Source of the DNA: Nitrosomonas sp. Nm132
GTDB taxonomy: Bacteria > Pseudomonadota > Gammaproteobacteria > Burkholderiales > Nitrosomonadaceae
Length of the DNA stretch: 64,000 nt
Assembly: GCF_900100485.1 (NCBI RefSeq)
Contig: NZ_FNDH01000008.1
Location: 1-64,000, forward strand
Direction of reading: 5' to 3'
Under the pieces are notes generated by a model. That model worked only from the letters and a program-made list of their open reading frames with translations. It was not told the origin of the DNA and did no database searches. Position numbers and translations under genes: made by a program. This document shows positions 36,374 to 42,973 of this stretch, piece after piece; the stretch's first letter is position 1; each line of letters opens with the position of its first letter.

Positions 36374-37975
36374 ATGCTTAAATTAGACCATATAAAAAGA
36401 AAACTAATAACGACATCAGCAGTTCTGTTGAGCGCTGTCGCAATGAATGGATATGCAGCAACAGCGACCTTTGATCCAGCATCACGTATTGTAGATCTTC
36501 CGGTTGTAGAAGTTTTGAATGGCGCATCGTCTTCATTCTATAGTGCTAAATTACAATTAGTTAATGGAAATCAGTTGAAATTAATCGCAGCTGATCCTGT
36601 CTCAGCAATACAAGGACAGCGTAACGTTTTTGATTCTAGCACTGCTGCAGTACATGTCCCTTCGATCGCTGTGGGATCAGATAATTTTTACGCTAAATTG
36701 AGATTAGTGCCGGGTTCAGGCCCGCTGAGCTTTACACTTGAACAACTCGTCAGTAATGAATTCCAAGGTTGCCCAAGTTTTGCAGTCCCAGGATCTACGC
36801 CAGGATCCTGTCTCTTAAGCGGTGAAATTAAAACTGATATTACGCTGACAAAGAATATCAACTGGATTTTATCGGGCGGTGTTTATATCGGTGGCGATAA
36901 TACTGAAAGTGCAACAATTACTATTAATCCAGGAACCAAAATTTTTGGGCAGCAAGGTGCTGACTATCTGTGGATAAGACGTGGTTCAAAAATTATGGCG
37001 GAGGGCACACCCGATAATCCGATTGTAATGTCTGGCTCAGGACAATTGGCGGCTGGCGAATGGGGTGGTCTGGTCATTTCTGGGAATGCACCGGTGAATG
37101 GTTGTAATGAAGGTGTGGCTATTTGTGAAATTCCTAACGAGGCCATTCCTTCTGAGTTTTTTGGTGGTAACAATCCAGCTGACAACAGTGGGATAATAAA
37201 ATATGTTCAGATTCTTTTTGCTGGCTTCGCCGTGCGTCCAGATGAGGAGCTCAATGGACTGACATTGAATGGGGTCGGCTCAGGAACGGTCATTGATTTC
37301 GTGCATGTTCATGCGGGTCTGGATGATGGTATAGAGATGTTTGGCGGTACTGCTCAGATGAAACATCTGGTATTGACTCATATAGGCGATGATAGTTTGG
37401 ATTGGGGAAGTGGTTGGACTGGACGTGCACAGTTTGTTGTGGTTTTTCAGTCTCCTAACGATGGTGACCGGGGTATTGAGGCCGACAACAACGAAAAAAA
37501 TAATAATCTTCTTCCTCGCGCCAAACCGATTCTGTCTAATATGACCTTTATAGGCTCTCCGGTTGCCACTGAAGGTATTCTGCTGCGTCGTGGTACCGGT
37601 GCGAATATCTGGAACTCAGTAATCACTGGTTTTCCTACTTGTATAACCATAGATGGGGCAGCTACTTATGAGAATGCTGGTTTTCCAGGGAGCTTGAGTG
37701 GTGAATTAACCATGGTCAATTCCTTTGTTCAGTGTGCCAATAACTTTATAGATGGCACGGGTGCCACGTTTACTGTAGCTGATTGGTTCTTGTCCCAGTC
37801 TGGAAACAGGGCAGAGAATCCTCTCCTGAATAGTGTTTTTCCTGCAGCCGGATCACCGCTGATAGGAGGAGGAGCTGCGGTAAACGATCCTTTCTTTGAT
37901 TCTGTAGACTATGTCGGTGCATTCAAGGATGCGAATGATGACTGGGTTTCAGAATGGATACACAAGTTTTTCTAA
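36374..37975 (+). CDS. Secreted right-handed beta-helix protein of unknown function
   Basis: A 533-residue exported protein with a signal peptide ending in MNGYA-AT. Residues 28-125 contain two copies of a module of about 50 residues (FDPASRIVDLPVVEV ... FYSAKLQLV and FDSSTAAVHVPSIAV ... FYAKLRLV). The rest is built of glycine/asparagine-rich strand turns (WIRRGSKIMAEGTPDNPI, GEWGGLVISGNAPVNGC, IKYVQILFAGFAV, MFGGTAQMKHLVLTHIGDDS) typical of a parallel beta-helix. It is preceded by GGAGGTGGG as SD and followed by a strong terminator. Similar proteins are often encoded beside TonB-dependent receptors; the molecular role is not known to me. Confidence 0.75.
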   Translation: MLKLDHIKRKLITTSAVLLSAVAMNGYAATATFDPASRIVDLPVVEVLNGASSSFYSAKLQLVNGNQLKLIAADPVSAIQGQRNVFDSSTAAVHVPSIAVGSDNFYAKLRLVPGSGPLSFTLEQLVSNEFQGCPSFAVPGSTPGSCLLSGEIKTDITLTKNINWILSGGVYIGGDNTESATITINPGTKIFGQQGADYLWIRRGSKIMAEGTPDNPIVMSGSGQLAAGEWGGLVISGNAPVNGCNEGVAICEIPNEAIPSEFFGGNNPADNSGIIKYVQILFAGFAVRPDEELNGLTLNGVGSGTVIDFVHVHAGLDDGIEMFGGTAQMKHLVLTHIGDDSLDWGSGWTGRAQFVVVFQSPNDGDRGIEADNNEKNNNLLPRAKPILSNMTFIGSPVATEGILLRRGTGANIWNSVITGFPTCITIDGAATYENAGFPGSLSGELTMVNSFVQCANNFIDGTGATFTVADWFLSQSGNRAENPLLNSVFPAAGSPLIGGGAAVNDPFFDSVDYVGAFKDANDDWVSEWIHKFF

Positions 37976-38075: not shown

Positions 38076-38322
38076 GGGGTTTCAAAAGAGGCTTGTTTCC
38101 GGTGGAGTATGCCAGGTGTGTTAAAGCGCCATAATCCGAATTACCTGATGAATGTCTGCGAAAAAGATCGATTCCGGGATTCCGTTATGAGAGGCAAGTG
38201 ATGGTCTGGTGAGAGATGCCACTTAAAAACTGCGATACCATTACATCTATCTGGCTGTAATCATAAAGCTACAATTAGGTCTCAGTAAGCTTGCATACCT
38301 TGATATGTGCTGAATTTCCTAA

Positions 38323-38680
38323 GAGCCTGTTCACGATCATGTGAATGTCGTAGACTCTGGGGAGGAAGAAGAGATACCCAAGCGACATTAGCCGAGAGGC
38401 ATTTGAAGATGTCCGGCCTCTGTTGGAGAGCGTGCGCAAGCAGACGAAGCCAAGGACAGTTGATTTATATGAAGTAAAGTGGAGTGAGCTTAGTCCAGAC
38501 GGCGCAAGTGCTCTGGAACGGGCTTTAAAAAAATGTAGTTGGCGTGACCCGTACAAAACAGGGGCGCAAATCCTCGACGAGCTTTTGATCGTCGACGCAC
38601 ACAGTGTAAAAAACACGGATAGTGCTCATGCGAAGGACTACGATGCAGGAAAGAAAGTCTCGGGGATCAAGCGCCACATC
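38323..38680 (+). mobile_element. Remnant of an IS5-type (IS427-like) insertion sequence, copy 1
   Basis: The left terminal repeat GAGCCTGTTCACGATC begins at 38323. The transposase text SREAFEDVRPLLESVRKQ, KPRTVDLYEV follows, then a large internal deletion, then SPDGASALERALKK, LLIVDAHSVKNTDSAHAK and AGKKVSGIKRHI. Homology stops at about 38680 without a right terminal repeat. Compared with the second copy, about 40 codons between DLYEV and WSEL are missing; a short AAGT repeat borders the deletion. Confidence 0.85.
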
Positions 38681-38747: not shown

Positions 38748-39764
38748 TTATTGCCGGATAGGTACTAAATAATCAGTAAAACTCTTTGCAGCAGTACCCC
38801 AGCTAAAGGCCTCAGCTCTTGCGCGCGCTTCCTGCCGGGAAATTTGCAGGGCTTTTAAAACGGCATCATTCAGATCATGTGACATAACCCCTCCTCCACT
38901 CCTACCGATGACCTCCAAGGGACCGTCAACAGGATAACAAGCTACGGGCGTGCCTGTTGCCATGGCCTCAAGTAAAACCAATCCAAAGGTATCTGATTTG
39001 CTTGGAAATACAAAAACATCAGCGCTGGCATATAACGTAACTAACTCGCTGCGAGGCAATATTCCGAGCCAATATGCCGCAGGAAAGCGTTGCCTGAGTT
39101 GTTTTTCCATTGGCCCTACACCGCAAACTACCTTACTACCGGGGAAATCCATTTCCAAAAATGCTTCAATATTCTTTTCATATGAAATACGACCCACAAA
39201 TAATGCCACGGGCCTTGGTAAAGCACCTAAAGTTGGAAATAAAATGGGTTGATCATGGTATCTAAAAAGATCAATATCAACTCCATGCGTCCAAGGTTTG
39301 AGATTCTGGAAACCTCGTCTTTGCAAGCCGGATAAAACAGATTGTGTAGGAACCATCACACTTGCTGAAGGTTGATGAAAACGTCTAAGCAGTGCATACC
39401 CCCACGAAACAGGAACTTTAGCTGATGCATTAAAGATCTCTGGGAATTTTGTGTGAAATGCAGAGGTAAAAGACCAGCCTGATTGCAAGCACAAAGAACG
39501 CGCTGCCCAGCCTAGCGGACCTTCAGTAGCAATATGTATCGCATCGGGCTTAAGCTTCTTCAGAAATTGTGACAAATTCTTTTTAGGCCGAATTGCCAGA
39601 TCAATTCCTGGATAACCCGGACAAGGGCGAGTACTGAAAAGACCCGGGTGAATGATTTCTACATAATGATCGAGCTTTCTGAGTTCTTTAACCAGTTCTA
39701 TCAACGTCGTTACCACGCCATTAACTTGCGGGTGCCATGCATCACTAATCAGTGCAATTTTCAC
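38748..39764 (-). CDS. GT4-type glycosyltransferase (Agt/MgtA-like, probable glycolipid synthase)
   Basis: A 338-residue GT-B fold glycosyltransferase with the opening MKIALISDAWHPQVNGVV, the donor-binding region VALFVGRISYEKNIEAFL near residue 190 and the EX7E-type motif region SKSDTFGLVLLEAMATGTPV near residue 255. It resembles GDP-mannose-dependent and sulfoquinovosyl/diacylglycerol glycosyltransferases. It overlaps the phosphoesterase gene by 4 bp. In several bacteria a PlcP-type phosphoesterase next to such an enzyme (Agt) replaces phospholipids by glycolipids under phosphate starvation; the Pho boxes upstream of this operon support the same role here. The actual sugar donor is not predictable. 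Confidence 0.85.
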   Translation of the reverse strand: MKIALISDAWHPQVNGVVTTLIELVKELRKLDHYVEIIHPGLFSTRPCPGYPGIDLAIRPKKNLSQFLKKLKPDAIHIATEGPLGWAARSLCLQSGWSFTSAFHTKFPEIFNASAKVPVSWGYALLRRFHQPSASVMVPTQSVLSGLQRRGFQNLKPWTHGVDIDLFRYHDQPILFPTLGALPRPVALFVGRISYEKNIEAFLEMDFPGSKVVCGVGPMEKQLRQRFPAAYWLGILPRSELVTLYASADVFVFPSKSDTFGLVLLEAMATGTPVACYPVDGPLEVIGRSGGGVMSHDLNDAVLKALQISRQEARARAEAFSWGTAAKSFTDYLVPIRQ

Positions 39765-40684
39765 GCTGGAACCTCATCTTTTTTTTCGATCTTTGCCGTA
39801 GCTGGAACGCCATCAGCCGAAGTATCTACAGTTACAATTTGATAATAGCTGTCTGTTTCTCTTTGAAATTGAGGCCAATGGATCAATTCCATTCGCCCGT
39901 CAATGTGTTCTACTAATGCAGTAAGGCTCTCGACCCAGTCTCCATCATTACAGTACACAATACCATCGATATCACGCATCTCAGCATGGTGTATATGCCC
40001 GCAGATGACACCATCGAGTCCACGACGACGTGCTTCCATAGCAACGGCCTGCTCAAATGAAGTGACATAGCTGACTGCTGTTTTAACTTTGTATTTCAGA
40101 TACTGTGAAAGCGACCAATAAGGCATACCTAATCGGGCACGGAGGGAACTCAAATAACGATTTAGCTTTAGAGTTAATTCGTAAAGGTTATCTCCGACGT
40201 AAGCAAGCCATTTAGCACACTGCACGACTCCATCAAAATAATCACCGTGTATTATCCAGAATCTACGACCATCAACAGTCTCATAGATAACTTCATCCGC
40301 TACTTCTATACCACCAAAGGAGTGGCCTAAAAACTCACGGGCAAACTCATCGTGATTACCCGGAACATACACCACCTTGCAGCCTTTCCGGACGCGGCGC
40401 AGTAACTTCTGTATCACATCATTATGAGCTTGCGGCCAATACCAGCGCCGGCGTAACTGCCAGCCATCGATAATATCCCCAATCAGATAAAGCTGTTCGC
40501 TGGGGTAAGCTTTTAGAAATTCCACTAAGGCTTGTGCCTGGCAACCCGGGGTACCGAGATGGATATCAGAAATAAAAACAGTCCGGACTCTTGGGTTAGT
40601 CACTTTTTCTGAGGAATCTTCGTCTTCTGAAATAGAAGCGCTAAGATCAGGATTAGCATAAAAATAACCTTTGAACTTATTCAT
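39761..40684 (-). CDS. Calcineurin-like metallophosphoesterase (PlcP-like; UDP-2,3-diacylglucosamine hydrolase-related)
   Basis: A 307-residue enzyme with the full set of metallophosphoesterase motifs: FISDIHLG (D-x-H), GDIIDGW, GNHDEF, WIIHGDYFDG and CGHIHHAE. It belongs to the LpxH-related group but is longer, with an N-terminal extension of about 30 residues. In phosphate-lipid remodelling systems the same group (PlcP) releases diacylglycerol from phospholipids. Its tight placement between an OlsB-like acyltransferase (2-bp gap) and a glycosyltransferase (4-bp overlap) supports PlcP rather than LpxH, the housekeeping lipid A enzyme. Assignment is by context and motif, not by search. Confidence 0.8.
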   Translation of the reverse strand: MNKFKGYFYANPDLSASISEDEDSSEKVTNPRVRTVFISDIHLGTPGCQAQALVEFLKAYPSEQLYLIGDIIDGWQLRRRWYWPQAHNDVIQKLLRRVRKGCKVVYVPGNHDEFAREFLGHSFGGIEVADEVIYETVDGRRFWIIHGDYFDGVVQCAKWLAYVGDNLYELTLKLNRYLSSLRARLGMPYWSLSQYLKYKVKTAVSYVTSFEQAVAMEARRRGLDGVICGHIHHAEMRDIDGIVYCNDGDWVESLTALVEHIDGRMELIHWPQFQRETDSYYQIVTVDTSADGVPATAKIEKKDEVPA

Positions 40685-40686
40685 GA

Positions 40687-41523
40687 CTACCCCAGAAAAT
40701 GTTTGCGGTAGCGGCTAGATAGATCATCCATTCGCATCAACATGGGCAAATCAGCAGTATTAAAGTTAGGATCCCATGCAGGCGCCCCTAATACCTTAGC
40801 ACCCAAGCGTAAATAACCTTTAAGTAGTGGAGGGGGAGCAATTTTTAATGATTGATCCAGATGGTCGACTGGCAGAGGTAAGTGTGGTCTAACTTGATAA
40901 TGAATATCCACCCCATACTGATCCCGAATTTGACGCCAAATACTTGCGGCAGCATGTCCTGCACCGATTCGATTGCTGTCACTTGAACCCATATTCATCG
41001 GTATGCTAACACAGCCCATCATATGACTTAACTGCTTACGCGCCATAAAGCTAATCAATTCTTTCCACAATGCTTTGATGACAACTCCATCACGATAATC
41101 CTTATGCACACAACTTCGACCTAATTCAGCCATATTCTCTCGTAACGACTGCAAGGAAGTTAGATCGAATTCACCTTCGCTGTAAGTTCTCCCAGCAAGC
41201 CTGGCTTGTGCCGGGGTCAGCACACGATAAGTTCCAATGACCTGCCAGGTTTTACGATCGCGCACTAACAAGTGCTCACAAAAATCATCAAAAACATCGA
41301 TATCATACCCAGGAATATGGGTTGGGAGAGTCGCGCCCATTTCATCAGCAAAAACTTCATATCTCAGCTTCTGAGCTTCACGAGCCTCACTTTTATTTTT
41401 TGCCCAGGTGGTCACGATATTTGATTTCTTCACCCAATCAGCAGAAAAGTACGAAGCAGGCTCTAGTATTTGAATTATTTTTTGCGGGAAAATATTTAAT
41501 TGCATATTAAGTGACGTATTCAT
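40687..41523 (-). CDS. OlsB-like N-acyltransferase (aminolipid/ornithine lipid synthesis)
   Basis: A 278-residue GNAT-fold protein of the OlsB type. Visible are EAQKLRYEVFADEMGA near residue 50, DFCEHLLVRD, IGTYRVLTPAQA, the acyl-acceptor region ELGRSCVHKDYRDG near residue 135, and GCVSIPMNM. OlsB makes lyso-ornithine lipid, the first step to phosphorus-free ornithine lipids. Starts at ATG 41523 with AAGGAG seven bases upstream. First gene of the operon; the next gene follows after 2 bp. The presence of an OlsA partner is not seen here. Confidence 0.85.
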   Translation of the reverse strand: MNTSLNMQLNIFPQKIIQILEPASYFSADWVKKSNIVTTWAKNKSEAREAQKLRYEVFADEMGATLPTHIPGYDIDVFDDFCEHLLVRDRKTWQVIGTYRVLTPAQARLAGRTYSEGEFDLTSLQSLRENMAELGRSCVHKDYRDGVVIKALWKELISFMARKQLSHMMGCVSIPMNMGSSDSNRIGAGHAAASIWRQIRDQYGVDIHYQVRPHLPLPVDHLDQSLKIAPPPLLKGYLRLGAKVLGAPAWDPNFNTADLPMLMRMDDLSSRYRKHFLG

Positions 41524-41596
41524 GTCTAACTCCTTATTATTGTTAGGTTATTGAGCTGCTTGACGCATTAGCTACCTATTATTCTCGGGAAATCTC

Positions 41597-41636
41597 ATGA
41601 ACTTACTGTGTCGCTTTTATGAAATTACTATGAAAG
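41597..41636 (-). promoter_or_regulatory. Four-unit Pho-box array upstream of the lipid operon
   Basis: Reading the minus strand from 41636, units CTTTCAT, ATTTCAT, GCGACAC and AGTTCAT begin at exact 11-bp intervals, each followed by a 4-bp AT-rich spacer. Three of four are close to the PhoB unit CTGTCAT (5 of 7 matches); the third is poor. The array ends about 75 bp before the acyltransferase start. This is the arrangement of PhoB-activated promoters. Confidence 0.6.
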
Positions 41637-42085: not shown

Positions 42086-42854
42086 GAGCCTGTTCATGTT
42101 CACGATCTTTTAAGCAGGAGAGCCAAGAAGGCTAGATGTATGAACTGCAAACTGGTGTTGGTTTTCGCTCGTAGTTTTTCCATAGTCGCCGGCATTTTTC
42201 TAACTAGGCAAAAGAGCGTTCGACAACCCAGCGTTGCGGTATGACGGTGAAAGTGTGAAGTTTGCTCCGCTTGGCAATCTGCACCTTGGTTCCGAGTAGC
42301 GCCTCTACCGCCTTGGCGAAAGGAAAGCGCTCTTACGATCCGTTACCTCAGCAGTTGTGACGGCAATCGCATGGGGAAGTCCTTGTGTATCGACCGCGAT
42401 GTGGCGCTTGATCCCCGAGACTTTCTTTCCTGCATCGTAGCCCTTCGCATGAGTGCTATCCGTGTTTTTTTTTACACTGTGTGCGTCGACGATCAAAAAG
42501 CTCGTCGAGGATTTACGCCCCTGTTTTGTATGGATCACGCCAACTACATTTTTTTTAAGGCCGTTCCAGAGCGCTTGCGCCGTCTGGACCCAGCTCACTC
42601 TACTTGGAAAAGTACGCATGTACCGTTCGCCACTTGGGAAACTCACTCGGTAGCATCCGCCATTGGCACCCGCTTTTCAGCAAATACAGCACGCCGCAAA
42701 ATACTTCTTATAAATCAACCGTCCTTGGCTTCGTCTGCTTGCGCACGCTCTTCAACAGAGGCCGGATATCTTCAAATGCCTCTCGGCTAATATGCTTGGG
42801 TATCTCTTCCTCATCCCCAGAGCCTACGACATTCACATGATCGTGAACAGGCTT
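42086..42854 (-). mobile_element. Decayed IS5-type (IS427-like) insertion sequence, copy 2
   Basis: Both ends carry the terminal sequence GAGCCTGTTCA (left, 42086) and its inverted partner (right, to 42854). The minus strand encodes an almost full-length transposase, from EAFEDIRPLL, VRKQ to FCGVLYLLKSGCQWRMLP, SFLIVDAHSVK, AGKKVSGIKRHIAVDTQGLP and, near the end, PQRWVVERSFA. It carries in-frame stops (after VDL and after YFSK) and frame breaks (an A-run expansion in the SVKKN region, a deletion after TDRK). It cannot make an active transposase. Orientation is opposite to copy 1. Confidence 0.9.
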
Positions 42855-42973
42855 TTAAGAAAACAATATGCAACAAAATTTATGGTATATATAATATGAG
42901 AGCTTTAGAGATCTATGCTCTGAATTAACAATGGCTTAAGTATTATTTCGGAGTGATTGAATCGAGTTTCTCT

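Follow-up and report, generated by a model that had tools for sequence, protein, structure and literature searches.

Several studies indicate that bacteria short of phosphate exchange part of their membrane phospholipids for lipids free of phosphorus. PlcP-Agt operons with Pho boxes have been reported from Pseudomonas aeruginosa and from marine bacteria, Pelagibacter among them. Adjacent, phosphate-linked plcP and agt genes are described for Pelagibacter, Pseudomonas aeruginosa (PA3219-PA3218) and Methylosinus trichosporium OB3b, together with a conversion of phospholipid to diacylglycerol and on to glycolipid; in P. aeruginosa and Methylosinus, ornithine lipids appear alongside the glycolipids when phosphate is limiting (PMC4796936, PMC8528852, PMC9239053). 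The OlsBA pathway combines an OlsB-family N-acyltransferase with an OlsA-like O-acyltransferase, whose genes are usually adjacent (PMC11631085); in M. trichosporium OB3b, the olsA and olsB locus tags are far apart (PMC9239053). The literature searched, in the portions available, held no description of olsB as the first gene of a plcP-agt operon, and no study of ornithine lipids, PlcP remodelling or phosphate and lipids in Nitrosomonas was found in it.

The locus described here has this arrangement. It lies in a stretch of 64,000 nucleotides (the window; contig C34) from a Nitrosomonas genome of 3.2 Mb, where olsB-like, plcP-like and agt-like reading frames are tightly packed on the minus strand, with a 2-bp gap between olsB and plcP and a 4-bp overlap between plcP and agt. 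Gene order, motifs, the control site, PhoB and PhoR, an OlsA candidate and the distribution of the operon were all established by computation. The initial annotation of the window had given the three reading frames and their spacing correctly to the base, and its assignment to the OlsB, PlcP and Agt families agrees with Pfam, NCBIfam and motif analysis. Both pathways do meet in one operon, as it had stressed. The combination stands out less than it had suggested, for many Comamonadaceae have their genes in this order too. The operon is a variant of a known remodelling strategy, not unique and common also in that family; it differs from the plcP-agt operons of Pelagibacter, P. aeruginosa and M. 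trichosporium OB3b in having olsB as its first gene.

The last gene of the operon (agt; 38748..39764, minus strand) encodes, from a GTG start, a GT4-type glycosyltransferase of 338 aa with the domains PF00534 and PF13439 (E 1e-19). GTcp, the diacylglycerol glycosyltransferase of SAR11, is characterised by the motifs GRVAxEKN and FPSxTDTFG, by His104 and by an Asp that replaces the signature Glu (PMC8231724). The window protein reads GRISYEKN, FPSKSDTFG and AFHTKFPE, and has His104, Gly16, Gly82, Gly85, an Asp (Asp258) at the site of the signature Glu, and a Trp close to the C-terminus, residues which, by alignment, match those shown to matter in GTcp (PMC8231724). Judged from its sequence, Agt keeps most of the published catalytic residues of diacylglycerol glycosyltransferases. 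It differs from GTcp at Arg163, which is essential in that enzyme (PMC8231724): residues 158-163 of the window protein are WTHGVD, with His at the apparent Arg163 position, as matched by eye without the GTcp sequence. This His is common to the Agt proteins of the genus and of the Comamonadaceae operons, and the more distant Agt of genome G043 reads RGVD.

The middle gene (plcP; 39761..40684, minus strand, ATG start) encodes a metallophosphoesterase of 307 aa (PF00149, E 1e-12) with a calcineurin-type core and the motifs GNHDE and GHIH. NCBIfam ranks UDP-2,3-diacylglucosamine diphosphatase (LpxH) models first for this protein, far below their cut-off (35 bits against 190 for TIGR01854). Since it is the only LpxH-like protein detected in the genome, and its closest solved relatives are LpxH, the phosphoesterase could be taken for the LpxH of lipid A synthesis, with envelope genes as its neighbours, a reading that we consider barely conceivable. 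GNHDE is present in 97 of 98 PlcP relatives and GHIH in 96 of them. The corresponding motifs are GNRDF and GHTH in two LpxH proteins read from loci, and GNRDF again stands at the aligned site of the solved LpxH 5k8k. Moreover, a separate LpxH over cut-off is encoded in 23 of 24 genomes sampled from other families, many of which also have a PlcP relative. Within the genus, 14 genomes have neither LpxH nor a PlcP relative, among them G036, which is rated 100% complete and contains only two PF00149 proteins.

The initial annotation had allowed that the phosphoesterase might prove to be the sole LpxH of its genome. This does not apply, as no LpxH over cut-off and no LpxI was detected in any of the 37 genomes of the genus. 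LpxB over cut-off was likewise missing from the six genus genomes tested for it (G000, G001, G011, G018, G020, G036), and was detected in the controls from E. coli, Caulobacter, Synechococcus and Bacteroides. Of nine lipid A genes, lpxK alone was reported from Nitrosomonas europaea by Opiyo and colleagues (PMC3087551). Taken together, these results make a role of the phosphoesterase in lipid A synthesis very unlikely, and the sole-LpxH reading was rejected after the searches for LpxH, LpxI, PF00149 and LpxB in relatives. By its sequence the protein is PlcP-like, not LpxH-like, and the genus seems to lack lipid A.

The first gene (olsB; 40687..41523, minus strand, ATG start) is preceded by a ribosome-binding site, AAGGAG (41530..41535, minus strand), read from the sequence, and encodes an OlsB-like N-acyltransferase of 278 aa with an Acetyltransf_5 domain (PF13444, E 2e-35). 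A tree also supports its assignment to OlsB, as another does for PlcP. The OlsB models of NCBIfam, whose names suggest that they derive from alphaproteobacterial enzymes, are its best matches by far, at 146 and 142 bits, with cut-offs of 320 and 350 that are not reached; the amino acid used could therefore differ. No useful OlsB relative was found among solved structures. The initial annotation had proposed a search for olsA elsewhere in the genome, and this did yield a candidate. Among the proteins of the four PF01553 regions in the genome, one of 267 aa, unlinked to the operon (G000:C64:6806-7606), has the best OlsA score. It reaches 134.6 bits with the Brucella OlsA model, whose cut-off is 300, as against 94.6 with the general AGP_acyltrn model; in at least nine other families its homologues adjoin olsB. 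However, the candidate occurs in all genus genomes but one, the exception being 76% complete, and these include genomes without OlsB or OlsF, so that it may serve phospholipid synthesis or another role. Co-occurrence of the candidate with OlsB or OlsF failed for the same reason as a test of its function.

The low model scores of OlsB and the change from Arg to His in the Agt clade, at a residue essential in GTcp, would both suit another pair of products, in which the N-acyl amino acid formed by OlsB is of another kind, such as a glutamine or glycine lipid, and the donor or acceptor of Agt is an unusual one. We regard this as rather unlikely, because the OlsB models outrank all others by a wide margin and OlsB homologues outside the genus stand beside OlsA-like genes in many families. 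An ornithine lipid and a glycolipid made from diacylglycerol remain the products that we predict.

Upstream of olsB, four 7-bp units, CTTTCAT, ATTTCAT, GCGACAC and AGTTCAT, follow one another at steps of exactly 11 bp (41597..41636, minus strand). Their combined match to CTGTCAT is 18 of 28 positions (p ~0.002 in 300-bp dinucleotide shuffles). Two further sites within the 64 kb score equally, so that the single sequence proves little, and it is conservation across genomes, not the score, that argues for the array. Each of the four genus genomes that have the operon shows the pattern ATTTCATAAAA-[GC][CT]-GACA-[CT]-A...TCA at a distance of about 65-115 bp upstream of olsB. The aligned block AA[TC]TTCATAAAA..GACA.A.....TCA, shared by the window, G018, G011 and G009, is invariant in 23 of 45 columns, where the mean is 8.9, and lies within DNA that has otherwise diverged. 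Units 2-4 (41625-41597) hold the same position in the three related genomes, whereas unit 1 recurs outside the window in G011 alone, and there in a loose form. The four-unit array of the initial annotation, correct as to the 7-bp units and the 11-bp steps, is therefore better described as a conserved core of three units plus one extra. The third unit is a weak match to the consensus (3/7); units of the GACAC type also precede the phosphate-selective porin gene of this genome (ATGACAC) and Acidovorax operons (CGACAC). A candidate -10 element, AATAAT (41578..41583, minus strand), can be proposed from the alignment 13 bp past the last unit, its AAT being retained in all four genomes. As far as sequence comparison goes, the Pho-type array upstream of olsB is real.

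In Comamonadaceae, too, the operon is preceded by arrays of the TGTCAT type with a period of 11 bp. For the regions upstream of olsB from 49 relatives, most of them in this family, the best three-unit score averages 13.2 at a period of 11 bp and 10.6-11.6 at periods of 7-10 and 12-16 bp, none of which is enriched (paired Wilcoxon test of the 49 regions against reversed sequence, p 3e-7). The genome encodes PhoB (354.6 bits, cut-off 296.2) and, beside it, PhoR (432.6 bits, cut-off 334.2), and Pho-like boxes precede both phoB (TTGTCATAAAAATGTAAT) and the phosphate-selective porin (Porin_O_P) gene (TTGTCATAGAAATGACACAAAAATGTCAT). The operon thus carries the sequence marks of a Pho-regulon member, that is, conserved CTGTCAT-like direct repeats at 11-bp steps in a genome with PhoBR, and the phosphate control foreseen in the initial annotation is supported in silico. 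In Burkholderia sensu stricto, ornithine lipids are reported to be made constitutively (PMC7814305), and the present operon might likewise make its aminolipid and glycolipid constitutively, or under stress control, instead of in response to phosphate. The array conserved in all four operons of the genus, and the enrichment of the 11-bp period in the mostly comamonadacean relatives, make this quite improbable. A double Pho-like array was observed upstream of the phosphate-selective porin gene (PF07396) at L098:3457-5085. A genome-wide scan for two TKTCAT units was discarded as a regulon list, being too loose (118 matches, against 49 for the reversed pattern).

We consider it highly probable that the locus is a PhoB-activated lipid-remodelling operon. 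The enzyme activities, their substrates and the induction by low phosphate are what we infer in the following scheme. Low phosphate would act through PhoR and PhoB to switch on the promoter at about 41600. PlcP, as its family suggests, would take the phosphorylated head group off a phospholipid, leaving diacylglycerol and freeing phosphate, and Agt, to judge from its family and motifs, would join the diacylglycerol to a sugar from a UDP-sugar, giving a glycolipid without phosphorus. OlsB would acylate an amino acid, most probably ornithine, with a 3-hydroxy fatty acid, and the unlinked OlsA-like acyltransferase would add the second chain to complete the aminolipid. Unlike in most OlsBA systems, the olsA candidate here stands apart from olsB. 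The operon is thereby predicted to allow phospholipids to be replaced by amino-acid lipids together with sugar lipids.

Ammonia oxidisers control a key step of the nitrogen cycle. The prediction is that members of this group, probably without lipid A, can cut their need for phosphorus by exchanging membrane lipids. In the genus, the full operon with OlsB is present in four of 37 genomes (window, G018, G011, G009). OlsF exceeds its cut-off in 19 of the 37 and is represented by fragments in others; OlsF and OlsB occur together in G018. Most OlsF genomes also encode a PlcP, about 50% identical, and most of the other members of the genus carry OlsF, a divergent PlcP or both, which likewise makes the combination less exceptional than had been implied. 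These genomes resemble the window in a predicted ornithine lipid, a PlcP and Pho-like sites upstream, and differ from it in the bifunctional OlsF, in the divergence of the PlcP sequence and in the separate units. Two versions of the remodelling module, both with Pho-type control sites, are thus suggested within one genus.

Among the OlsF loci (L054:5359-7113, L055, L109-L113, L102), inspection by eye and score, without shuffles, showed olsF preceded by a Pho-like box at a distance of 67-80 bp in seven of the seven examined, and 11-bp arrays upstream of their plcP genes, which form separate units. No agt match was found in the two 12-kb OlsF loci inspected (L054, L055). A broader proposal, to which we give only a small chance, is that, in a genus apparently without lipid A, the aminolipids and glycolipids not only save phosphate but are also building lipids of the outer membrane that partly replace lipopolysaccharide, and that some lineages swapped OlsF-PlcP for an imported olsB-plcP-agt set with its own PhoB switch.

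Of the 80 best PlcP relatives, 36 belong to contiguous olsB-plcP-agt loci, mostly in Comamonadaceae, a proportion that is not an unbiased frequency, as the relatives were picked by similarity. The loci of Acidovorax, Limnohabitans, Ramlibacter, Polaromonas and Hydrogenophaga have the gene order of the window, and many have a Pho-type array; their OlsB and Agt proteins are about 56-66% and 55-67% identical to those of the window. In contrast to these loci, with their somewhat wider gene gaps, the window operon is a compact variant in another host lineage. In trees that were made quickly and contain many weak forks, the Nitrosomonas OlsB falls among those of Comamonadaceae (support 99), apart from the OlsB of most other families, and the PlcP copies likewise group with Comamonadaceae. 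This grouping suggests an old horizontal transfer as the simplest reading of the origin of the operon.

The closest named relative of the window PlcP is that of Nitrosomonas halophila Nm1 (support 99 for the PlcP clade). In N. halophila (L123), plcP-agt occurs without olsB, and a four-unit 11-bp array, CTGTCATctgaATTTAATacgcCCGACATctgtACGTCAT, lies about 580 bp before plcP. The olsB gene may have been lost there; no OlsB remnant was found between the Pho-like array and plcP. In the window, the operon is bracketed by inverted remnants of one insertion sequence, 92-100% complementary, the left copy at 38315..38680 on the plus strand and the right copy at 42398..42862 on the minus strand. In G009 (L038), a homologue of the window gene at 36374-37975 lies directly upstream of olsB and in the same direction. 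Given this arrangement and the inverted remnants, the orientation of the operon in the window may be the result of an inversion by recombination between the two copies.
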